From NCBI RefSeq assembly GCF_900188105.1, contig NZ_FZNP01000025.1, positions 1-64,000 of the forward strand: DNA of 64,000 nucleotides, read 5' to 3'. This DNA comes from Actinomadura mexicana (GTDB lineage Bacteria; Actinomycetota; Actinomycetes; Streptosporangiales; Streptosporangiaceae). Position 1 is the stretch's first letter, and each line of letters starts with the position of its first letter. This document shows, piece after piece, positions 10,076 to 22,899 of this stretch. Both the position numbers and the translations under genes were made by a program. The notes below the pieces were generated by a model. The model was not told where the DNA came from. It saw only the letters and a program-made list of their open reading frames with translations, and did not search any database.

Positions 10076-11320
10076 TCAGGCGCGGCCGTGCGAGGCGCGC
10101 GAGCGGCGGGCGACCGAGTCCAGCGCCACGGCGAGCAGCAGCACCGCGCCGGTGACCATGAAGCGGTAGGACGAGTCGAGGTTCAGCAGCGTCAGCCCGC
10201 TGGAGATCGACTGGATGACCAGGATGCCGAGCAGCGCCGCGAACGCGTTGCCGCGCCCGCCGAACAGGCTCGTCCCGCCGATGACGGCCGCCGCGATCGC
10301 GTTCAGGTTGACGTCGCCGCCGCCGCTGCTCTGGTTGGACGCCGCCAGGCGCGCCGCGGCGAGGATGCCGCCGATCGCGGCGAGCGTGGTGCACATGACG
10401 AACGCCGAGGCGTAGACGGTCTTGACGTTGATGCCGGCGCGCCGGGCCGCCTCGACGTTGCCGCCGACCGCGTACACGGACTTGCCGTACTTGGTCCGGG
10501 AGAGGACGTAGTGCGTGGCGAGCACGAGCGCCAGGAACAGCACGAACATCCAGCCGACGCCGCGGTCCCGGTTGAGGTACCAGACCGCGACGACGAGGCC
10601 GGCCAGCAGGGCGGCGCTGCGCAGGACGAGCGTGCGCTCCGTCGTCGCGGGCAGGCCCGCCTTGCGGCGCTGCGCCGCACGGTTGTGGCCCGTCAGGTAC
10701 AGCCCGCCCGCGCCCGCGGCGGCCAGCGCGTACGCCAGCCACGGCGGGAGGAAGTCGAGCTGGGCGAACGTCACCAGCCGCGAGTCGAACGGCAGGTTGA
10801 TCGAGCCCTTGGGCCCGAGGACCCACAGCTGCAGGCCGAGCCAGCCGAGCAGCCCGGACAGGGTGATCACGAAGCTGGGCACGCCGAGCCGGTTGAACAC
10901 CTTCGCGTAGAACCAGCCGAGCGCGACGGCCAGCGCCACCGCCGCGACGATCGCCAGCCAGGACGGCCAGCCGTGGTCGACGAACAGCACCGCGACCACG
11001 GCGGCGCTGAGCCCGCTCACCGACCCCACCGACAGGTCGATCTGCCCGACCAGCAGCATGAACACCACGCCGAGCGCGATCACGCCGACCGGCACGCACT
11101 CCAGCGCCAGGTTGACCAGGTTCGCGCTGGACAGGAAGACCGGATTGAGGATCTGCATCACGGTCCAGATCACGATCAGCCCGCCGACCACCGGCGCGAC
11201 GCCGAGGTCGCCGCCCCGGACCCGGTCGGCGGCCGCCGCCAGCATGGCGCGCACCCCCCGGTTCCCGGGCTCGCCCGGCAGACCGGTCTTGGTCTCCGGG
11301 GGCGCCATGAGGTCACTCAT
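10076..11320 (-). CDS. Sugar ABC transporter permease (XylH/RbsC type)
   Basis: 414 residues with about ten membrane segments, BPD_transp_2 family. Conserved features include VGQIDLSVGSVSG, the GRNRFA-like region seen as YVLSRTKYGKSVYAVGGN, and AAVIGGTSLFGGRGN. It has a soluble insertion around residues 190-225 and a charged N-terminal 25 residues. It forms the membrane channel of a CUT2 importer with the ATPase, whose gene end it overlaps by 8 bp, and the binding protein. Confidence 0.9.
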   Translation of the reverse strand: MSDLMAPPETKTGLPGEPGNRGVRAMLAAAADRVRGGDLGVAPVVGGLIVIWTVMQILNPVFLSSANLVNLALECVPVGVIALGVVFMLLVGQIDLSVGSVSGLSAAVVAVLFVDHGWPSWLAIVAAVALAVALGWFYAKVFNRLGVPSFVITLSGLLGWLGLQLWVLGPKGSINLPFDSRLVTFAQLDFLPPWLAYALAAAGAGGLYLTGHNRAAQRRKAGLPATTERTLVLRSAALLAGLVVAVWYLNRDRGVGWMFVLFLALVLATHYVLSRTKYGKSVYAVGGNVEAARRAGINVKTVYASAFVMCTTLAAIGGILAAARLAASNQSSGGGDVNLNAIAAAVIGGTSLFGGRGNAFAALLGILVIQSISSGLTLLNLDSSYRFMVTGAVLLLAVALDSVARRSRASHGRA

Positions 11321-12251
11321 CGCCCGCTCCCTTCCTCAGGCCGCCCGGTGCGACCCGCTCGGGCCGATCGCCGTCCGGCTCGTCCGCGCCGCCGGCGGCG
11401 TCCCGCGCCTGCGCGGTCTCGGTCTTCCCGCCGGCCCCGGCGGGGGCGTCCTCCGCTCCGGGACGGAGCTTGCCGGCGCGGCGGCTCACCACGTTGTCGG
11501 TCGCGCCGGTGATGGCGGCGACCAGTTCCTCGGCGGAGGTCGTCCGCGCGTCGAACACGCCGTTGTTGCGGCCGAGGCGCAGCACCGCGACGGTGTCGGC
11601 GACGGCCCGCACGTCGGCCATGTTGTGGCTGATCATGAGGACGCCGTGGCCGCGCTCCCTGAGCCGCTCGATCAGGTTGAGCACCTCGGCGGTCTGGGCC
11701 ACGCCGAGCGCGGCGGTCGGCTCGTCCAGGATGATGACCTTCGGGTCGCCGAGCAGCGACCGGGCGATCGCCACCGTCTGCCGCTGGCCGCCCGACAGCG
11801 CCGCGACCGGGACCGCCACCGAGGGGATCTTCGCCGAGAGCTGGGTGAGCAGTTCGCGGGAGCGGACCTCCATCGCGACGTCGTCCAGGCGCAGCGCCCG
11901 CAGCTCGCGGCCGAGGAACAGGTTCTCGATCACGTTGAGGTTCTCGCAGAGGGCGAGGTCCTGGAAGACGGTCGCGATGCCGAGCTGCTGCGCCGCGGCC
12001 GGGGTGGGGATGCTCACCTCCCGCGACTCGAAGGCGATGGTCCCCGCGTCCGGGGCGTGCACGCCGGACAGGACCTTCACCAGGGTGGACTTGCCGGCGC
12101 CGTTGTCGCCGACGAGGGCGACGACCTCGCCCGCGGCGACGTCCAGGTCGACGCCGGTGAGCGCGGCGACCGCGCCGAACGACTTGCTGACGCCGCGCAG
12201 CGACAGCAGCGGGCCCGCCGCGCCGGCGGCCGGGGTGGGCGTTGGTGACAT
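11313..12251 (-). CDS. Sugar ABC transporter ATP-binding protein
   Basis: 312 residues, a single ATPase domain: Walker A GDNGAGKST (about 47-55), Q-loop in TVFQDLAL, signature LSGGQRQ, Walker B VIILDEPTAAL, and switch histidine in MISHNM. CUT2 importers often have a double-length RbsA; this one is the half-length form. The last 60 residues are a low-complexity charged tail (GAGGKTETAQARDAAGG) with no match. The stop overlaps the permease start. Confidence 0.9.
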   Translation of the reverse strand: MSPTPTPAAGAAGPLLSLRGVSKSFGAVAALTGVDLDVAAGEVVALVGDNGAGKSTLVKVLSGVHAPDAGTIAFESREVSIPTPAAAQQLGIATVFQDLALCENLNVIENLFLGRELRALRLDDVAMEVRSRELLTQLSAKIPSVAVPVAALSGGQRQTVAIARSLLGDPKVIILDEPTAALGVAQTAEVLNLIERLRERGHGVLMISHNMADVRAVADTVAVLRLGRNNGVFDARTTSAEELVAAITGATDNVVSRRAGKLRPGAEDAPAGAGGKTETAQARDAAGGADEPDGDRPERVAPGGLRKGAGDE

Positions 12252-12270
12252 GACGAACCTCGGGAGATCG

Positions 12271-13347
12271 CTACTTGAGGCCGAGCTTGGCGCAGGCGGC
12301 CGCGTACTCGGCGGTGCAGACCTTGTCGGTCTTGAGGGCGCCGTCCGGGCCGAGCAGGACCTTGCCGATGTTGTCCTGGGTGACGACGGTCGGGGTGAAC
12401 AGCTCCGACGGCGTGCCGAACAGCGTCGTGTTGCCCTTCGGCGTCTCGCCCTGGACGAACGCGTGGGCCGCGTTGGCGGCGGCCTCCGCGACGATCTTGA
12501 TCGGCTTGGAGATCGTGTTGTACTGGTCGCCGGCGATGATCCGCTGCGCGGCGGCGAGCTCGGCGTCGTTGCCGGTCACCGGCGGGACGTCGGTGCCGGC
12601 GGCCTTGAACGCGGCGACGGCGGCGCCGCCGGTGCCGTCGTTCGCGGCGACGACGCCCGCGATCTGGCCGCGGAACTTGCTGATCTGGCCGGTGACCCAC
12701 TGCTGGGCCTTGGCGGGCTCCCAGCCGGGCGTGTCGTACTCGGCGAGCAGCTTGAAGCCGCTCGGGTCGACCGAGCTGTGGATGCCCTTCTTGATCAGGT
12801 TCGCGGCGGCGTCCGTCGGCGAGCCGTTGACCTCCAGGATGCCGCCCTCGGCCTTCTCCTGCTTGAGGTGGTCGACCAGCGACTGGCCGATCATCGCGCC
12901 GATCTTCTCGTTGTCGAACGAGACGTAGTAGTCGGCCTTGGCCGCCGGGATGGGGCGGTCGTAGGCGATCACCTTCACGCTCCGGGACTGCGCCATCCGG
13001 ACGATCGACGCCGCCGCGGCCGAGTCGACCGGGTCGATCACGATGGCCTTGACGCCCTGGGCGAGCACCGAGCTGGCCTGCTGCTGCTGCTTGGAGGCGT
13101 CAGCGCCGGCGTTCTGGTAGAGCACCGTGCAGCCGCCGCACAGCTGCTTCATCTTGGCTTTGAACAGCGGGGCGTCGTAGAGCTCGTAGCGGGTCGAGGC
13201 GATGTCGGGCATGAGGAACGCGATCTTGGCGTTCTTCGCGTCGCCGCCATCGGACCCCGCGCTCTTGGAGGAGCACGCCGCGGCGGGGGCGAGCGCCGCG
13301 AGCGCCGCGGCGGCCGCGGCGACCGTCCTGAGAGAGGGCTTCTTCAC
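12271..13347 (-). CDS. Sugar ABC transporter substrate-binding lipoprotein
   Basis: 358 residues. A lipoprotein signal (MKKPSLRTVAAAA, lipobox LAPAAAC with Cys25) anchors it outside the membrane. The mature part is a periplasmic-binding-protein-like fold of the RbsB/XylF group (IAFLMPDIASTRYELYD, VIDPVDSAAAASIV, GVVAANDGTGGAAVAAF). It is the first gene of the carbohydrate operon, 19 bp before the ATPase. It captures the sugar or polyol imported for the two kinases; the ligand is not inferable. Confidence 0.9.
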   Translation of the reverse strand: MKKPSLRTVAAAAAALAALAPAAACSSKSAGSDGGDAKNAKIAFLMPDIASTRYELYDAPLFKAKMKQLCGGCTVLYQNAGADASKQQQQASSVLAQGVKAIVIDPVDSAAAASIVRMAQSRSVKVIAYDRPIPAAKADYYVSFDNEKIGAMIGQSLVDHLKQEKAEGGILEVNGSPTDAAANLIKKGIHSSVDPSGFKLLAEYDTPGWEPAKAQQWVTGQISKFRGQIAGVVAANDGTGGAAVAAFKAAGTDVPPVTGNDAELAAAQRIIAGDQYNTISKPIKIVAEAAANAAHAFVQGETPKGNTTLFGTPSELFTPTVVTQDNIGKVLLGPDGALKTDKVCTAEYAAACAKLGLK

Positions 13348-13435
13348 AGAGTTCTCCTCGTGGGTACGCCCGTGAAGGGGGCGATTGAGCCGATGCGGCG
13401 TCCGCTCGACCGGGATCGGCGGCCACCGCGGGGAG

Positions 13436-13600
13436 AACGTAACATCCTTAACGTTAGAAGTGTCAATACATGGGCGTTAACTAACACGGGTGATCGTGAA
13501 CATGATCGTTCGGAGAACCCGAAAAGCCTGGTCACAGCTCAGCATCGATCCTGCGAGGGCACTAGGCACCCGCGGGTCAGGCGATGTTAGTTGTAACGTC
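13436..13600 (-). promoter_or_regulatory. Operon promoter with repeated TTAAC-type operators
   Basis: On the minus strand, TTGACA (13461-13466) is a good -35 for the binding-protein gene. TAACGTTA (13449-13456) lies between it and the -10 region, and TGTTAGTTAAC (minus strand, 13476-13486) lies just upstream. A related TGTTAGTTGTAAC is found in opposite orientation at 13585-13597. A GTTAACA plus TGTTAA pair also precedes the DeoR gene. The likely binder is that DeoR protein. Confidence 0.55.
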
Positions 13601-13616
13601 CGTGCTCACACGGAGG

Positions 13617-14408
13617 TCAGCGGCGCGGGCGCACGGCGACGTCGTAGTCGACCTTGTGCTTCGCCAGCTCGGCCAGCGCCTCCGGCGCCGTCCCGTCGTC
13701 CACGACCACCCGCTCGAAGTCGCTCAGCGGCGCTACCCGGTGCAGCGCGGTGCGACCCAGCTTCGTGTGGTCCACCAGCAGGACGTTGCGGACGGCGCTG
13801 CGCAGCATGGCCCGTTTGACGACCACGACCCGCTGCTCCTGGTGGCCGGCGTTGCCCGCCGACACCGCCGAGGTCGACACGAAGCACAGGTCGACCTGCA
13901 GGGACTCGATCATCTCGACGCACGAGACGCCCATGAACGAGTTGTGCAGCGGATCGTAGTCGCCGCCGAGCGCGATCAGCCGGATGCCCTGCACCGGGGC
14001 CAGCAGGTTCAGGCCGTCCAGGAAGTTGGTGACGATCGTCAGCGGGCCGAGCCCGGGGAGCCGGCGGGCGAGGGCGAGGGCCGTCGTCGAGTCGTCGAGC
14101 ATGATCGCCATGCCGGGCTCGACCAGCTCCACCGCCCTTGCGGCGACGGCCTCCTTCTCCTCGCGCATCGTCTTGGCCCGGTAGGCGACGCTGCTCTCGA
14201 AGACCCCGGACCGCTGCGCGGTGACCCCGCCGCGGTACTTGCGCACGATGCCCTGGCGCTCCAGCTCGTCCAGGTCGCGGTGGATCGTCATGAGGCTGAC
14301 CCCGAAACGCTCGGCGAGCTCGGCGGCCGTCCCCGATCCCGCGGCGAGCACCGCCTCGGCGATCGCGTCCTGCCGCTGCGCGGGCCCCCGCCGCTGCCGG
14401 TCGCTCAT
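13617..14408 (-). CDS. DeoR/GlpR family transcriptional regulator
   Basis: 263 residues from ATG 14408 (after GGAGGAG). The N-terminal winged helix contains AELAERFGVSLMTIHRDLDELERQG, in two parts the DeoR recognition helix, followed by the DeoRC sugar-phosphate sensor domain (MLDDSTTALALARRL, VTNFLDGLN, ALGGDYDP). DeoR proteins repress sugar operons until a phosphorylated intermediate binds. It lies just upstream of the ABC/kinase operon on the same strand and is very likely its regulator. Confidence 0.9.
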   Translation of the reverse strand: MSDRQRRGPAQRQDAIAEAVLAAGSGTAAELAERFGVSLMTIHRDLDELERQGIVRKYRGGVTAQRSGVFESSVAYRAKTMREEKEAVAARAVELVEPGMAIMLDDSTTALALARRLPGLGPLTIVTNFLDGLNLLAPVQGIRLIALGGDYDPLHNSFMGVSCVEMIESLQVDLCFVSTSAVSAGNAGHQEQRVVVVKRAMLRSAVRNVLLVDHTKLGRTALHRVAPLSDFERVVVDDGTAPEALAELAKHKVDYDVAVRPRR

Positions 14409-14442
14409 AGCCCCGCTCCTCCGTCCGGACGCCAGGCCAGAA

Positions 14443-14462
14443 GTTAACACCAGGAATGTTAA
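14443..14462 (-). promoter_or_regulatory. Candidate DeoR autoregulatory site
   Basis: GTTAACA and TGTTAA occur 7 bp apart immediately upstream of the DeoR gene. They are the same elements seen in the ABC operon promoter, suggesting autoregulation. Confidence 0.4.
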
Positions 14463-14479
14463 GAGCTCAACTCACCCGG

Positions 14480-14872
14480 TCACCGGTCGTCGGCCCCGGT
14501 CGTCGGCAGGCCCGCCGCGCGCCATGCCTGGAACCCGCCCACGACGTCGGTCGCGCGGGTCAGCCCGAGGTCGTGCAGGGACGCGGCGGCGAGGCTGGAG
14601 GTGTAGCCCTCCGAGCAGAACACGATGACGCGCAGGTCGTGCCCGGTTGCCTGGGGCAGCCGAGCGTCCGAGGCCGGGTCGAGGCGCCATTCCAGAACGT
14701 TGCGCTCCACGATCAGCGCGTCCGGGATCTCGCCCTCCGCCGCGCGCTGGGCGGCCGGGCGGATGTCGACCAGCAGCGCCCCGTCGCTCATCTCGGCGTG
14801 GGCCTGGTCGGGGTGGACGCGCGCGAGCCGGTCGCGCGCCGCGGCGAGGATGTCATCGATAGTGCGTGCCAT
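14480..14872 (-). CDS. Rhodanese-like sulfurtransferase domain protein
   Basis: 130 residues, one rhodanese domain. LLVDIRPAAQR (about 33) is the CH2A region, and the active-site loop is VFCSEGYTSS with the catalytic Cys (about 86). The C-terminus has VVGGFQAWRAAG, the typical last helix. Single-domain rhodaneses transfer sulfane sulfur. The gene stands alone between the DeoR regulator and a Gfo/Idh/MocA oxidoreductase on the same strand. Confidence 0.88.
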   Translation of the reverse strand: MARTIDDILAAARDRLARVHPDQAHAEMSDGALLVDIRPAAQRAAEGEIPDALIVERNVLEWRLDPASDARLPQATGHDLRVIVFCSEGYTSSLAAASLHDLGLTRATDVVGGFQAWRAAGLPTTGADDR

Positions 14873-14893
14873 GGACCAAGCATGGCAGGCGGA

Positions 14894-15766
14894 TCAGGCC
14901 AGCTGCGCCTCGGCCGAGGCGAGCACCTCCTGGATCCGCAGGCCGTGGGCGGCGTCCAGCGGCGGGCCCGTCCCGCTCCGGACGGCGGCGGCGAACTCGG
15001 CCACCATCGTGGCGAACGCGTCGTCGCCGAGCTGCGACCAGTCGAGCCGCGCGTGGCCGCCCCGCCCGTACACCTCGACGTGGGCGGGCGGGAGCTCCCC
15101 CATGCCCGCCATCGACACCGACGCCTGGCTGATCGCGCCGCCCTCGTGCTCCAGCGTCAGCCCCAGCCAGCCGAGGGGGTCGCCGTGCGCGCGCACGCCG
15201 GCGACCCGGCCGAGTGCGGCGTCCAACAGGTCGACGATGTGGGGGCCGAGGTCGAGCAGCGCCCCCTTCTCCAGCCGCCACGGGGTGGCGAAGGGGCCCC
15301 CGCTCAGCACGGACGAGACGAACGAGCCGTAGCCGCCGAACGGCTCCAGCCCCCGCGCCCGGTCGAGGAAGCCGCGGGCGGCGCGCGAGTAGCGCAGCGT
15401 GAGGACCATCTGGGAGACGACGCCCGCCTCCGCGACGGCGCCCGCGAGGCGGCGGGCCCCGTCCAGGTCCATGGCGAGGGGCTTCTCCAGCAGGACGGCC
15501 TTGCCCGCCCGGGCGGCCCGGGCGGCGAGGTCGGCCTGCACGTCCGGCGGGACGGAGAACGCCACGGCCTCGCAGGCGTCGAACAGCTCCTCGATCCGCT
15601 CGAACGAGGGCGCGCCGTGCTCGCCCGCCAGCGCGGCGGACGCCTCGGGCCGCCGCGCCCACACGCCCGCGAGCCGCGTGTGCGGGCCCGCCGCCAGCGC
15701 CGGCGCGTGCACCATCCCCGCCCAGGGTCCCGCCCCGACCAGCCCCACCGCCACGGAATCGCTCAT
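14894..15766 (-). CDS. Gfo/Idh/MocA family oxidoreductase
   Basis: 290 residues. The N-terminal NAD(P)-binding motif is GLVGAGPWAGMVH (8-20), and the diagnostic EKP motif is in VLLEKPLAMD (about 92-101). The C-terminal substrate domain has the GALLDLGPHIVDLL helix typical of the family. Members oxidise sugars, inositols or similar. Proximity to the carbohydrate operon makes a sugar substrate plausible, but a 580-bp interval with regulator and rhodanese separates them. Confidence 0.85.
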   Translation of the reverse strand: MSDSVAVGLVGAGPWAGMVHAPALAAGPHTRLAGVWARRPEASAALAGEHGAPSFERIEELFDACEAVAFSVPPDVQADLAARAARAGKAVLLEKPLAMDLDGARRLAGAVAEAGVVSQMVLTLRYSRAARGFLDRARGLEPFGGYGSFVSSVLSGGPFATPWRLEKGALLDLGPHIVDLLDAALGRVAGVRAHGDPLGWLGLTLEHEGGAISQASVSMAGMGELPPAHVEVYGRGGHARLDWSQLGDDAFATMVAEFAAAVRSGTGPPLDAAHGLRIQEVLASAEAQLA

Positions 15767-15827
15767 GGGACAAACTTAGACGATCTACCATCTTCCCCGG
15801 CGCGCCCAGCCAGCGGGGCGGCGGGCG

Positions 15828-16217
15828 TCAGCCGAGCTGGACGCCGAAGAACAGCGCCAGGAGCGCGCCCAGGGCCCCAAGGGCGCCCCAGGCGGCGAGG
15901 CCGGCCTTGGACGTGGCGCGGGTGTGCAGCAACGCGGCCACGCCGGACAGCAGGACGAACACCAGCTTCACCTCCAGGGTGCGCTGGGCGGCGCCTCCCA
16001 GGTCGTCCGCGACGATGTTCCAGACGCCGGTGAGGACGAGGACGGCGAACGCGGGCCAGGCGATCGTGTTGAACCGGCGCGCGGCGGCCTTGGTGACGCC
16101 CTCGTAGCCGCGCAGCGCGGGCACGAGCGCGCCGAGGGTGATCTGCCCGCCGACCCAGATTGTCGCGGCGAGCACGTGCAGGAAGATCCGCACGTCGGCG
16201 GTGGTGACGGCGAGCAC
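15828..16217 (-). CDS. CopD-like / DUF2269-type integral membrane protein
   Basis: 129 residues with four hydrophobic segments. It includes FLHVLAATIWVGGQI (His and Trp pattern of the CopD family), FNTIAWPAFAVLVLTGVWN and VKLVFVLLSGVAALLHT. These are typical of small CopD-domain proteins that may bind heme or copper in the membrane. The GTG at 16217 follows GGAGG; a longer frame to 16304 has no ribosome site and a proline-rich start. Function unproven. Confidence 0.7.
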   Translation of the reverse strand: MLAVTTADVRIFLHVLAATIWVGGQITLGALVPALRGYEGVTKAAARRFNTIAWPAFAVLVLTGVWNIVADDLGGAAQRTLEVKLVFVLLSGVAALLHTRATSKAGLAAWGALGALGALLALFFGVQLG

Positions 16218-16319
16218 GAGGGGCCTCCGAGGACGTACCGGGCGAGTGGTGGGACGGGTCGGCCCCGGAACGTTACCGCCCGCCCCGGCGGCGTCCGGCG
16301 GCACCCCGGTCGGGGGGTC

Positions 16320-17167
16320 TCAGGAGGCCCGCTCCCATCCCCGGCGGGGGGTGTACATGCCGAGCTGCTCGTCGCGGCTGCGGTAGACGATGTAGGGGCG
16401 GGTCAGGTAGCCGACGGGCGCGGTGAGCATGTGGACCAGCCGGGTGAACGGCCAGATGCCGAACAGCACGAGCGCGCTGATCGCGTGGAGCTGGAACAGG
16501 ATCGGCACACCGGTCATCAGGTCGGGGTCGGGCTGCAGGTAGAAGATCGACCGGAACCAGGGCGAAACCGTCTCCCGGTAGTCGTAGCCGTCGCCGACGA
16601 TGTTCGCGACGACGGTCGCGGACAGGCCGAGCAGGATGGTCAGCGCCAGGACGGCGTACATGAGCTTGTCGTTGCGGGTGGTGGCGGAGAACACCGGTCC
16701 GACCGTGCGGCGCCGGTAGACCAGGATCGCCAGCCCGGCCAGGGTGCAGAAGCCGGCGACGGTGCCGAGCACCACGGCGACGACGTGGTACATGTCCTCG
16801 GTCACGCCGGCGGCCTCGGTCCAGCGGTCGGGGATCAGCAGCCCGCCGACGTGGCCGCCCATCCCGGCGCCGAAGATCCCGACCGCCAGCCCGCGCCGCC
16901 GGGGCGGGAACCAGGCGTTGACGAAGGGGACTCCGACCGCGAACGTCGCGCCGGCGATGCCGAGGAAGAACCCGCCCGCGAGCAGCGACGCCAGCGAAGA
17001 GTGCCCGGCCAGGCCCAGGTAGAGGACGGGCACGATGGTGAACAGCGAGACCGCGGGGAACATCGCCCGGCCGCCGAACGGTCGGTCAGCGCGCCGACGG
17101 GGATGCGCCCCAGCGAGCTCAGCAGCGCCCATGCCCAGAAGTTCACCGCGAACCCGAGCGTGGCCAC
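16320..17167 (-). pseudogene. narK-narI fusion remnant of a nitrate respiration operon
   Basis: The minus strand begins (GTG 17167) with VATLGFAVNFWAWALLS, the N-terminus of the NarK nitrate/nitrite transporter, then jumps to SLGRIPVGALTDR; the 30 or so residues usually between these are missing. A single lost base near 17070 then shifts the frame into FGGRAMFPAVSLFTIVP and onward to GIFGAGMGG. At about 16850-16857 the frame passes directly into HVGGLLIPDRWTEA, the middle of NarI, the cytochrome b subunit of nitrate reductase, and continues to its normal C-terminus (RLVHMLTAPVGYLTRPYIV). The rest of narK, all of narG, narH and narJ, and the start of narI are gone. Three of NarI's four heme histidines seem to remain. 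An open frame from ATG 17063 encodes the chimera but has no ribosome site. Confidence 0.85.
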
Positions 17168-17441
17168 CGGCCAGCATGACCATCGGCCGCCCGCCGCCCG
17201 GCCCGGTCTCCGCGGGGCCCGCTGCCGCCGTCCGACGTGTCCCAGTCACCGTGCCTCTGCCTCCGCCGGCCCGATTTCGGTGGGCCTTCCCTGTGCGTGT
17301 TGCGAAAAACCATGATCGGTTTCCGTCCGCACCACCCTCGTGGCCCTCGGTGACGCGTGGTAGGGACCTTGGTCCCGCCCAAAGGCCCCGCGAGGGTGCG
17401 GGCCGCCCGGCGACCGGCGTCCCGCGCCATGACCTACCGTT

Positions 17442-20300
17442 GTGACCGTGACCGACCATCGTGAGCACGGAGAGCTGGTGGAGGCGCTGCGGGCGGCCGG
17501 GGTCAGCGGGGTGGACGACTCGGCGCTCGCGCGGTCCCTGTACTCCTCGGACGCCTCCCTGTACCGGGTGCCGCCGCGGGTCGTGGTGACGCCCCGTGAG
17601 GCGGGCGAGCTGCCGGTCGTCCTCGCGGTGTGCCGGGACGCCGGGGTGCCGCTCACCATGCGGGGCGCCGGGACGTCCATCGCGGGGAACGCAGTCGGGC
17701 CCGGGGTCGTCGTCGACGTGAGCCGGCACCTCGACCGGGTCCTGGAGATCGACCCGGAGGCGGGGACGGCGCTGGTGGAGCCCGGCATCGTGCAGGCGCG
17801 CCTGCACCGGGCGGCGGCGGAGCACGGGCTGCGGTTCGGGCCGGATCCGTCCACCCGGACGCGCGCCACGCTCGGCGGGATGATCGGCAACAACGCGTGC
17901 GGGTCGCGGGCGCTCGGGTACGGGCGCACGAGCGACAACGTGCTCGGCCTCGACGTCGTCACCGGATCCGGGGAGCGGCTGCGGCTCGGCGACGTGCCGG
18001 GGGCCCACCCCGGCAGCGTCCTGCTGGAACGGCTGCGGGGGCTGGTCGGCGAGCACCTGGCCCTCGTGCGGACGGAGTTCGGGCGGTTCGGCCGGCAGGT
18101 CTCCGGTTACTCGCTGGAGCACCTCCTGCCGGAGAGGGGCTTCGACGTCGCCCGCGCGCTGGTGGGAAGCGAGGGGACGCTCGCACTGACGCTCGCGGCC
18201 CGGGTGCGGATGGTCCGGGAGCCCGCGCACCGGGCGCTCGTGGTGCTCGGGTACGGGTCGATGGCCGAGGCCGCCGACGCCGTCCCGGCGATCCTGCCGC
18301 ACGGCCCGGTCGCGTGCGAGGGGCTGGACTCGCGGATCGTGAACGTCGTGCGGGAGCGGCGGGGCGCCGGCGCGGTGCCGCCGCTGCCGTCCGGGTCCGG
18401 ATGGCTGCTGGTGGAACTGGCCGGATCCGAGCCCGGGGCGCTGCGTTCCACGGCGCGCGAGATCGCCGCAGCGTCCGGCTGCGCCGACTCGGCGCTCGTG
18501 GAGGACATGGCGCTGGCCGACGCGCTGTGGCGGATCCGCGAGGACGGCTCCGGGCTCGTCGCGCGCACGCCCGCCGGCGAGCAGGCCCACGCCGGGTGGG
18601 AGGACGCGGCCGTCCCGCCCGAGCGGCTCGGCGCTTACCTGCGGGAGTTCGAGACGCTGCTGGCCGGTTACGACCTGTTCGGCGTCCCGTACGGGCATTT
18701 CGGCGACGGGTGCATCCACGTCCGGATCGACTTCCCGTTCGGGCGGACCGGCGGGACGCGCGTCTTCCGGGAATTCCTGAACGAGGCGGCCGCGCTGGCG
18801 GCCCGGCACGGCGGCACCATGTCCGGCGAGCACGGGGACGGGAGGGCCCGCAGCGAGCTGCTGCCGCACATGTACTCGGCCGGGGCGCTGGCGCTGTGCT
18901 CGGCCGTCAAGGACGTCTTCGATCCGGACGATGTACTCAATCCCGGCATCATCGTCCGCCCGGCGGCCGTGGACGCCGACCTGCGCGCCGTGCAGACGAT
19001 CCCGCTGAACCGGGGACTCGGTCTCGCCTACCGGGACGACCGCGGCGACCTGTCCCGGGCCGTGCACCGCTGCACCGGCGTGGGAAAGTGCCGCGCCGAC
19101 AACACCGGGGCGGGCGGCGTGATGTGCCCGTCCTACCTGGCGACCCGGGAGGAGAAGGACTCCACGCGCGGACGGGCCCGCGTCCTTCAGGAGGTCGTCA
19201 GCGGGAAGCTCGGCCCGGACGGCTGGCGGTCCGAGGCCCTGCACGACGTGCTCGACCTGTGCCTGGCCTGCAAGGGCTGCGCGTCCGACTGCCCGACCGG
19301 CGTCGACATGGCCTCCTACAAGGCGGAGGCGCTGCACCAGCGGTACCGGGGGCGGATCCGGCCGCGCTCCCACTACGCGCTCGGCCGGCTCCCGCGCTGG
19401 ACCCGGCTCGCCGCCAGGGCGCCCGCGGCGATCAAGGCGGTCAACGCGGCGATGCGGTCGCGCGCGCTGAAGCCGCTGCTCGCCTGGGGCGCGGGCATCG
19501 ACCGGCGGCGGACGCTCCCCGCGCTCGCGCCCGTGACGTTCCGGCGCTGGTTCGCCTCCCACCGCAGCCCGGCGGGCCGCAACGGCGACGTCGTGCTGTT
19601 CGTGGACAGCTTCACCGACGCGTTCTCCCCGGAGGTGGGCCGGGCGACCGTGCGGGTGCTGGAGCACGCCGGCTACCGCGTCACGGTGACCGAGCGCCCC
19701 GTGTGCTGCGGGATCACGTGGATCTCCACCGGGCAGCTGGACGGGGCGCGGGCGCAGGCGCGCCGCACCGTCCGCGCGCTGCTCCCCCACGTCCGGCGCG
19801 GCGCCAGGGTCGTCGGCATGGAGCCGTCGTGCACCGGGGTGCTGCGGTCCGACGCCGAGGAGCTGCTGAGGGGCGTGGACGCGGCAGCCGCCCGCGAGGT
19901 CGCCGCCGCGACCCGCACCCTGGCCGAGCTGCTCGCCGAGACGCCGGACTGGACGCCGCCCGACCTGTCCGGCGTCACCGGGATCGCGCAGCCGCACTGC
20001 CACCACCACGCCGTCATGGGCTGGGCGAAGGACGCCGACCTGCTGCGGAAGGCGGGCGCGGGCGTCGAGCGGCTCGGCGACTGCTGCGGGCTGGCCGGCA
20101 ACTTCGGCGTCGAGAGGGGCCACCACGAGGTGTCGGTCGCCGTCGCCGAGCAGCGGCTGCTCCCGGCCGTCCGCGCGGCCGGGGAGGACGCCGTGGTCCT
20201 GGCCGACGGGTTCAGCTGCCGCACGCAGCTGCGCGAGCTGGCGCACCGCGACGGCGAGCACCTCGCCCAGCTCCTGGCCCGCCGCCTGCCGGAGCGCTGA
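17442..20300 (+). CDS. Fused FAD-linked oxidase / 4Fe-4S protein (GlcD-GlcF type)
   Basis: 952 residues. The N-terminal half is a PCMH FAD-binding domain (MRGAGTSIAGNAVGPG, about 70-85; GNNACGSRALGYGRTSDN) with the FAD-oxidase C domain containing GTMSGEHGDGRARSELLP. The C-terminal half has two ferredoxin motifs, beginning CTGVGKC and CLACKGCASDCP, then two CCG heterodisulfide-reductase-type motifs (RPVCCGITW, GDCCGLAGNFG). Such fusions oxidise D-2-hydroxyacids such as glycolate or lactate and pass electrons to the membrane pool. Start is GTG 17442 or 17448; neither has a clear ribosome site. The substrate is not established. Confidence 0.88.
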   Translation: MTVTDHREHGELVEALRAAGVSGVDDSALARSLYSSDASLYRVPPRVVVTPREAGELPVVLAVCRDAGVPLTMRGAGTSIAGNAVGPGVVVDVSRHLDRVLEIDPEAGTALVEPGIVQARLHRAAAEHGLRFGPDPSTRTRATLGGMIGNNACGSRALGYGRTSDNVLGLDVVTGSGERLRLGDVPGAHPGSVLLERLRGLVGEHLALVRTEFGRFGRQVSGYSLEHLLPERGFDVARALVGSEGTLALTLAARVRMVREPAHRALVVLGYGSMAEAADAVPAILPHGPVACEGLDSRIVNVVRERRGAGAVPPLPSGSGWLLVELAGSEPGALRSTAREIAAASGCADSALVEDMALADALWRIREDGSGLVARTPAGEQAHAGWEDAAVPPERLGAYLREFETLLAGYDLFGVPYGHFGDGCIHVRIDFPFGRTGGTRVFREFLNEAAALAARHGGTMSGEHGDGRARSELLPHMYSAGALALCSAVKDVFDPDDVLNPGIIVRPAAVDADLRAVQTIPLNRGLGLAYRDDRGDLSRAVHRCTGVGKCRADNTGAGGVMCPSYLATREEKDSTRGRARVLQEVVSGKLGPDGWRSEALHDVLDLCLACKGCASDCPTGVDMASYKAEALHQRYRGRIRPRSHYALGRLPRWTRLAARAPAAIKAVNAAMRSRALKPLLAWGAGIDRRRTLPALAPVTFRRWFASHRSPAGRNGDVVLFVDSFTDAFSPEVGRATVRVLEHAGYRVTVTERPVCCGITWISTGQLDGARAQARRTVRALLPHVRRGARVVGMEPSCTGVLRSDAEELLRGVDAAAAREVAAATRTLAELLAETPDWTPPDLSGVTGIAQPHCHHHAVMGWAKDADLLRKAGAGVERLGDCCGLAGNFGVERGHHEVSVAVAEQRLLPAVRAAGEDAVVLADGFSCRTQLRELAHRDGEHLAQLLARRLPER

Positions 20301-20313
20301 CCGCCCGGCGCGG

Positions 20314-21060
20314 CTAACCGCCCAGCGTGCGCGAGAGGGTGAGCGCAGCGGTGTGGACCGCGGGGGCCACCGCGGCGAGCCGCATCCGGGCCGCCCAGCC
20401 CGAGACCGACAGCGCGCCGAGGACCAGGCCCTCCGGGCCGAGGACGGGACTGGCGGCGCAGACGATCCCGCGGCCGGACTCCTCCCGGTCGTAGGCGACG
20501 CCCTCGCGCCTGATCGTCTCCAGCTCCCGGGCGAGCAGCCCCGGCGCGGTCACGCTGCGCTCGCTGGCCTTGACCAGGTCCGACTCCAGCACACCCCTGG
20601 CCACCTCCGGCGGGGAGAACGCGAGGATCGCCTTGCCCACCCCGGTCACGTGCGCGGGCAGCCGCCCGCCCACCTGAGACGGCAGCCGCGGCCCGCCTGG
20701 GGAGCCGAGGATCTCCACGTAGACGACCTCGCCGCCCTCCAGCACCGCGAGGTGGACGGTCTGCCGGGTGGCCTCCCGCAGGTCCGACATGTACGGGACG
20801 GCGGCGTCCCGCAGCACCCGCTGGCGCGGGACCCGCTGCCCGATCTCGAACAGCCGCAGCCCGAGCCGCACCCGCGGGCCCCTGCGCTCCAGCAGTCCGG
20901 CGTCCACCAGGTCGAGGGCGATGCGGTGCGCGGTCGACTTCGGCAGGCCGCTGCGGCGGGCCAGCTCGGCGGCGCCCAGGCCGTCGTCCTCCGGACGGAA
21001 CGCCGACAGCACCGCGACGACGCGGCGCAGGAAGCTCTCCTCGGACGGGACGGGCGGCAT
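20314..21060 (-). CDS. IclR family transcriptional regulator
   Basis: 248 residues from ATG 21060. The N-terminal winged helix is in LGAAELARRSGLPKSTAHRI, and the C-terminal effector domain has VHLAVLEGGEVVYVE, THVTGVGKA-like HVTGVGKAILAF, and GIVCAASPVLG. IclR proteins of this kind often control aromatic or short-chain acid catabolism. It is divergent from the hydratase-dehydrogenase-aldolase operon, with 94 bp between starts, and probably regulates it. Confidence 0.88.
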   Translation of the reverse strand: MPPVPSEESFLRRVVAVLSAFRPEDDGLGAAELARRSGLPKSTAHRIALDLVDAGLLERRGPRVRLGLRLFEIGQRVPRQRVLRDAAVPYMSDLREATRQTVHLAVLEGGEVVYVEILGSPGGPRLPSQVGGRLPAHVTGVGKAILAFSPPEVARGVLESDLVKASERSVTAPGLLARELETIRREGVAYDREESGRGIVCAASPVLGPEGLVLGALSVSGWAARMRLAAVAPAVHTAALTLSRTLGG

Positions 21061-21069
21061 GAAAGAAGT

Positions 21070-21086
21070 GTCCCACCACGCGGGAC
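21070..21086. promoter_or_regulatory. Inverted repeat in the IclR/hydratase intergenic region
   Basis: GTCCC-N7-GGGAC lies between the divergent IclR gene and the catabolic operon. It is a short but symmetric candidate operator; binding is inference. Confidence 0.35.
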
Positions 21087-21154
21087 GTCCGCATTGCCCG
21101 CGGGGGTCGCAGCGGGAGAGGCTCGCCCTGCCCACACGAACGAAAGGACGGCCC

Positions 21155-21952
21155 ATGGACCCGGGTTCCGTGGAGAAGGCCGCGGCCGCGCTGCTCGACG
21201 CGTACGCCACCGGCACTCCCATCTCGCCGCTGACCAAGGACCATCCGGACATGTCGGTGGCCGACGCCTACGCGGTCCAGCTCGCCCAGGTCGAGGCCTG
21301 GACGGCCGCCGGCGCGCGGATCAAGGGCCGTAAGGTCGGCCTGACCTCGGCCGCGATGCAGCGCCAGATGGGCGTGGACCAGCCGGACTTCGGCGTGCTG
21401 CTGGACACGATGTTCCTGCCGGAGAGCGCCCCGATCGACGCCGGCCGGTTCCTGCAGCCCCGGATCGAGCCGGAGGTCGCGTTCGTGCTGGGGCGCCCGC
21501 TGGCCGGTCCCGGGGCCACGACGGCGGACGCGGTCGCGGCCGTCGAGTACGTGCTGCCCGCGCTGGAGGTGATCGACTCCCGCATCGCGGACTGGAAGAT
21601 CACCCTCCCGGACACGATCGCGGACAACGCCTCCAGCGGCGGCGTCGTGCTCGGCACCCGCCCGGTCCGGCTGGGCGACCACGACCTGTCGCTGATGGGC
21701 TGCCTGCTGCGCCGCGACGGCGACCTGATCGACACCGGCGCGGGCGGCGCGGTCCTCGGGTCGCCGATCAACGCGCTGGTCTGGCTGGCCAACGTCCTCG
21801 GCGAGCGCGGCGTGAGCCTGGAGGCCGGGCACGTGGTACTGCCCGGCTCGATCACCGCGGCCGTGCCGGTCGCGCCCGGGCAGACACTGACGGCGACGTT
21901 CGCCGGGATCGGTTCGGTGACCGCCCGGTTCGGAGAGGAGGAGCTCACATGA
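21155..21952 (+). CDS. 2-hydroxypenta-2,4-dienoate (2-keto-4-pentenoate) hydratase
   Basis: 265 residues, FAH-fold hydratase that adds water to 2-hydroxypentadienoate to give 4-hydroxy-2-oxovalerate. Characteristic stretches are [32 protein letters not shown] (metal-binding glutamates), [11 protein letters not shown] and [11 protein letters not shown]. The ATG follows AAAGGAC. A closely related 4-oxalocrotonate decarboxylase is the alternative, but the two next genes are the exact downstream enzymes, which favours the hydratase. Overlaps the next gene by 4 bp. Confidence 0.88.
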
Positions 21953-22899
21953 GCGAAGCGGACCGGGGGGCGCGAGGGGGCGCCCCCTCGCAGGGAACGG
22001 GCGGGGGCAGGCTGACGGCGGCGATCGTCGGGCCGGGCAACATCGGCACCGACCTGCTTGTCAAGCTCCAGCGCAGCGAACTGGTCGACGTCCACTCGAT
22101 GGTCGGGGTGGTCCCGGAGTCCGACGGCCTGGAGCGCGCCCGCAGGATGGGCGTCGAGGCGTCGGCAGAGGGCGTGGACTGGCTGCTGAAGCAGCCCACA
22201 CTGCCCGACCTCGTGTTCGAGGCGACGTCGGCGAAGGCGCACCTGGCCAACGCGCCCCGCTACGAGGAGGCGGGGATCACGGCGATCGACCTGACGCCGG
22301 CCGCGACGGGCCCCCTGGTGTGCCCGCCGGTGAACCTGGACTCGCTGTCGGACGTCCCCAACCTCAACATGATCACCTGCGGCGGGCAGGCGACGATCCC
22401 GATCGTGCACGCGGTGTCGTCGGTGGTGCCCGTGCCGTACGCCGAGATCGTCGCGTCGATCGCGTCCCGCTCGGCCGGGCCCGGCACCCGCGCGAACATC
22501 GACGAGTTCACCGAGACCACGGCCCGCGCGATCGAGCAGGTCGGCGGGGCCGGGCGGGGCAAGGCGATCATCATCCTGAACCCGGTGGACCCGCCGATGA
22601 TCATGCGGGACACGGTGTTCTGCGCGATCCCGTCCGACGCCGACACCGGGGCCATCTCGGAGTCGATCGAGAAAATGGTCGCGGAGGTCGCCGCCTACGT
22701 CCCCGGCTACACGCTGCGGGTCGAGCCGCAGTTCGACGAGCCCCGCGACATCTGGAACGGGATGGCCCGCGTCGCGGTGTTCCTGGAGGTCCGCGGCAAC
22801 GGCGACCACCTGCCGCCGTGGGCCGGCAACCTCGACATCATGACCGCGGCCGCCGCCCGGGTGGGCGAGCAGCTGGCGCGCAGGAAGGCCTCCGCATGA
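21949..22899 (+). CDS. Acetaldehyde dehydrogenase (acylating)
   Basis: 316 residues. It converts acetaldehyde, or propanal in steroid pathways, plus CoA and NAD to acyl-CoA, receiving the aldehyde by channelling from the aldolase. The NAD motif is [12 protein letters not shown] (about 25-36) after an unusual 22-residue glycine-rich N-terminal extension. The catalytic cysteine is in [11 protein letters not shown]. The C-terminal [13 protein letters not shown] is typical of MhpF/HsaG enzymes. The gene overlaps both neighbours by 4 bp. Confidence 0.93.

Follow-up and report, generated by a model that had tools for sequence, protein, structure and literature searches.

An in-frame narK-narI fusion in Actinomadura, very probably the scar of a recently deleted narKGHJI operon

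Introduction

NarX of Mycobacterium tuberculosis is a fused nitrate reductase that resembles the NarGHI subunits, coexists with intact narGHJI, and has no shown nitrate reductase activity (PMC7759655, PMC7816997). The gene order narKGHJI, found in Actinomadura relatives of the strain considered here, is the same as that named for Corynebacterium (PMC12343034).

The window analysed in this work covers contig C32 over its first 64 kb in a draft genome assembly (G000; 53 contigs, 8.79 Mb), which named relatives assign to the genus Actinomadura. The minus strand of the window carries, at positions 16320–17249, the first third of narK joined to the last 70% of narI. A first-pass annotation of the window had interpreted this locus as a nitrate respiration operon collapsed into a chimera. 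A literature search found no report of this narK-narI locus, and NarX is, to our knowledge, the nearest described case.

Results

The sister species G061 carries a complete narK-narG-narH-narJ-narI operon at the orthologous place, which provided the comparison with a close relative that the first-pass annotation had proposed. In this genome and in those of four other relatives (G062, G005, G080, and G081), narK and narI share a strand and are separated by about 7.3 kb that include narG, and in all five genomes the neighbours of the operon are a CopD-like gene and a divergent FAD/Fe-S dehydrogenase gene. Both flanking genes are present in the window, where the gene of the CopD-like membrane protein (15828–16304, minus strand) is located downstream of the fusion, and the gene of the FAD/4Fe-4S dehydrogenase (YdiJ/GlcD-GlpC-like; 17442–20300, plus strand) is located upstream in divergent orientation. 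The DNA identity between G000 and G061 is about 96% on either side of the locus.

A blastn comparison of the window with G061 yielded three collinear pieces (10632–16857, 16854–17121, and 17109–22431) with 96.3–96.7% identity. Window position 16857 corresponds to L047:6218 and position 16854 to L047:13340, and the offsets define a deletion of 7125 bp relative to G061 and 7122 bp relative to G005. The lost stretch extends from inside narK through narG, narH, and narJ into narI. Its junction, previously placed near 16850, was positioned at 16854–16857 by alignment to the intact operon of G061 and the contexts in 16 intact relatives; it coincides with a 4-bp microhomology (GCCG on the plus strand, CGGC on the coding strand) common to narK and narI. 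The two genes are joined in frame, for which the chance is about 1 in 3.

The narI part (16320–16857, minus strand) comprises the last 178–179 codons and the native stop, with about 78 N-terminal residues gone, and its product shares 93.8% amino acid identity with NarI of G061. The proposed joining of the N-terminal third of NarK to the second half of NarI was thus correct as to the fusion, but the retained portion of NarI, 179 of about 257 residues (70%), is more than a half. The narK remnant (16854–17249, minus strand), delimited by alignment to G061 narK, begins with the native GTG at 17249 and ends at the junction. It carries three lesions of its own, all on the minus strand. The internal deletion of roughly 30 codons noticed earlier is an 84-bp (28-codon) deletion at 17109–17121, located between short imperfect repeats and recognised by the overlap of the blastn pieces obtained with G061 and with G005. 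The reported one-base shift was found as a one-base deletion at 17078/17079 in alignments to G005 and G061, but it is accompanied by a second indel, a one-base insertion at 17167–17171 seen in the alignment to relatives, which offsets the frame until the deletion restores it.

Since the two one-base indels, located to either side of the 84-bp deletion, cancel each other, the native GTG at 17249 opens a frame of 309 amino acids (16320–17249, minus strand). This frame departs from that of narK for about 30 codons near the N-terminus, then returns to it and continues through narI to the native narI stop. Therefore, ATG 17063, from which a chimera of 247 codons had been proposed, need not be the start, although that shorter frame is indeed open. 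The 247-codon frame matched the NCBIfam profile of NarI (TIGR00351) at residues 61–230 with 135.9 bits, above the cut-off of 105.55, and the Pfam NarI family with an E-value of 2.4e-62. Its match to the NCBIfam profile of NarK (TIGR00886; residues 5–116) was weak, at 54.6 bits far under the cut-off of 311.7, and covered only profile positions 73–187 of 368, so that the narK remnant does not represent a full 12-helix MFS protein. The openness of the frame is weak evidence in such G+C-rich DNA, since the opposite strand over the same stretch is also open for 463 amino acids.

Helix 1 and most of helix 2 of NarI are missing from the fused product, and helices 1–2 of NarK are deleted or out of frame. 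The alignment to chain C of the structure 1q16 starts at its residue 57. Of the haem-ligand histidines of NarI, which we take to be E. coli H56, H66, H187, and H205, the last three are kept in the fused frame (3/4), while the position of H56, found in the motif SPLFHFG in relatives, is occupied by narK sequence. The dN/dS of narI was 0.28–0.50 between the window and five close relatives versus 0.18–0.30 among those five, a rise too small to establish relaxed selection. Two synonymous and four non-synonymous narI changes, one of the latter made by the junction, are specific to the window, compared with six and none, respectively, for G061; these numbers are too few for significance. There is no sign of selection on the chimera. 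With these NarI and NarK helices, one haem ligand, and all partner subunits absent, the product is almost certainly non-functional, as far as can be predicted from its sequence.

In agreement with the first-pass annotation, which had listed narG, narH, and narJ as missing, a search of the G000 assembly revealed no NarG at 1e-50 (matches were confined to generic molybdopterin reductases and did not exceed 31 bits), a single NarH match of 57 bits, far under the cut-off of 524, and no match to NarJ. NarG is present in 51 of 65 members of the genus. The absence of nar genes elsewhere in G000 is not absolute, because this draft assembly contains at least one repeat gap, at rpoB. Only two contig-end stubs of rpoB were found, L199 (G000:C10:5-238) and L200 (G000:C52:170027-170260), each ending about 70 codons into the gene, which makes rpoB unusable as a tree marker. 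Two rpoB copies are present in each of G061, G062, G005, G080, and G081, and in G000 a duplicated rpoB looks to have dropped out of the draft assembly through repeat collapse.

Contig C52 encodes a NarK-family transporter of greater length, whose score of 291 bits is slightly short of the cut-off of 311.7. It adjoins a molybdopterin reductase of the assimilatory type, with a uroporphyrinogen-III-synthase-like frame next to it; these names were read from the sequences. Nitrate assimilation probably persists in the strain via this cluster.

A phylogenetic tree of 29 species was constructed from 580 codons of gyrB, extracted using tblastn. G000 is sister to the narG-positive G061 with a support of 99, and the pair is nested within narG-positive species; the loss is therefore placed on the terminal branch of G000, after the split from G061. 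The operon was lost independently in at least two other species, G029 and G082. In G029, a different narK-narI fusion with three deletions occupies L035:10240-10851 (G029:C1, about 778.2–778.9 kb): deletions of 94 bp and roughly 71 bp affect narK, and NarI is reduced to about its last 33 residues. The 94-bp deletion overlaps the stretch covered by the 84-bp deletion of the window. A single loss common to G000 and G029 was rejected, since G029 has narK bases that are gone in G000 and lacks narI bases that are kept there. G082 represents a third, nearly complete operon loss, with some 72 bp of narK left at L051:8720-8791 (G082:C1:372719-372793), in the gap that separates the dehydrogenase gene from the CopD-like gene; on the tree, it groups with the narG-positive G022 and G006 (supports of 94 and 100). 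Likewise without NarG, G015 is sister to the narG-positive G001.

Several further observations concern nar loci in other genomes. NarG was not matched in G077, where the contig carrying narI (G077:C208:10044-10574, also L059:12-539) ends beside the narI position of the window's junction; fragmentation of the assembly may be all that lies behind this, and G077 was left out of the loss count. At G027:C1:7461146-7461274 (L052), an isolated stretch matches the C-terminal end of NarI (63% over 43 residues) and may be what is left of a second nar operon; another, complete narG is present elsewhere in G027. In some other actinobacteria, narK and narI are near neighbours: at G042:C1:2947186-2948315, narK is located directly after narI on the same strand, and L121, L126, L127, and L130 are possible further cases of such proximity. 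This layout looks like a different operon order and not a fusion.

Discussion

The locus can be regarded with high confidence as the scar of a recently deleted narKGHJI respiratory nitrate reductase operon, and what doubt is left on the deletion concerns mostly misassembly. Counting against this reading are the in-frame junction, the frame that is open from the start of narK to the stop of narI, the slightness of the dN/dS rise, and the draft state of the assembly. The earlier reading of an operon collapsed by deletion, with the loss of Nar respiration, is borne out by sister species that retain the complete operon at this position and by the lack of NarG, NarH, and NarJ in the assembly; from these comparisons, the loss of Nar-type nitrate respiration in the strain is well supported. 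The large deletion probably arose, once G000 and G061 had split, through end-joining or slippage at the 4-bp microhomology. The fused frame has probably stayed open owing to the youth of the lesion and the G+C-rich DNA, and its product, if any, would be an inactive membrane fragment.

Since fusions of narK to narI occur in both G000 and G029, each with an 84–94-bp deletion of the same narK stretch, one could propose that such fusions are recurrent in Actinomadura owing either to a deletion hotspot or to selection for a membrane product, which we consider very improbable. It is also conceivable that narKGHJI is intact in the strain and that the assembler skipped 7.1 kb, as the genome is a draft of 53 contigs in which rpoB, duplicated in sister species, is absent save for the two stubs. 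However, narG is single-copy in the sisters and thus offers no long repeat to collapse, only 4 bp are common at the junction, which sits within a contig between syntenic flanks, narGHJ sequence occurs on no other contig, and three more narK lesions lie away from the junction. Judging from the assembly and the sequence comparison, misassembly is unlikely, with a very slight chance of being the explanation. That selection maintains a functional fused membrane protein, for example a haem-binding or transport-like one, is hardly credible, because the 309-amino-acid frame from the native start of narK, the three retained haem-ligand positions, and the second, independent fusion in G029 are outweighed by the out-of-frame codons near the N-terminus, the missing ligand at one haem site, the loss of all partner subunits, the unsuppressed non-synonymous changes, the near-complete decay in G082, and the short NarI remainder in G029, which makes a function common with the window's fusion impossible.

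The narK-narI scar is therefore an ordinary, recent gene loss and not a new gene. It provides a cleanly placed loss of anaerobic nitrate respiration, given that the operon is intact in a sister with about 96% identity and has disappeared independently from no fewer than two further lineages of the genus. The scar also serves as a warning for annotation, since a score above the curated NarI cut-off could lead to the fused frame being called a nitrate reductase subunit in a strain without that type of reductase.

Compared by description only, the chimera is like NarX in being a single frame assembled from pieces of a nar operon; it is set apart, likewise by description, by its make-up of a NarK head and a NarI tail and by the disappearance of all other nar genes. 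The remnant in G029 is similar in the loss of narG, the retained narK stub, and its fusion to the end of narI, but has different breakpoints, while G082 shares the narG loss and the narK stub but retains only about 72 bp of narK. With the narKGHJI operons of its Actinomadura relatives, the locus shares the location, the flanking genes, and, with the sister species, about 96% identity in the remnants, differing from them in the 7125 bp that are gone (the narK end, narGHJ, and the narI start) and in the further narK lesions. The case belongs to a familiar class, the deletion pseudogenes, and the intact operon of G061 documents it well.
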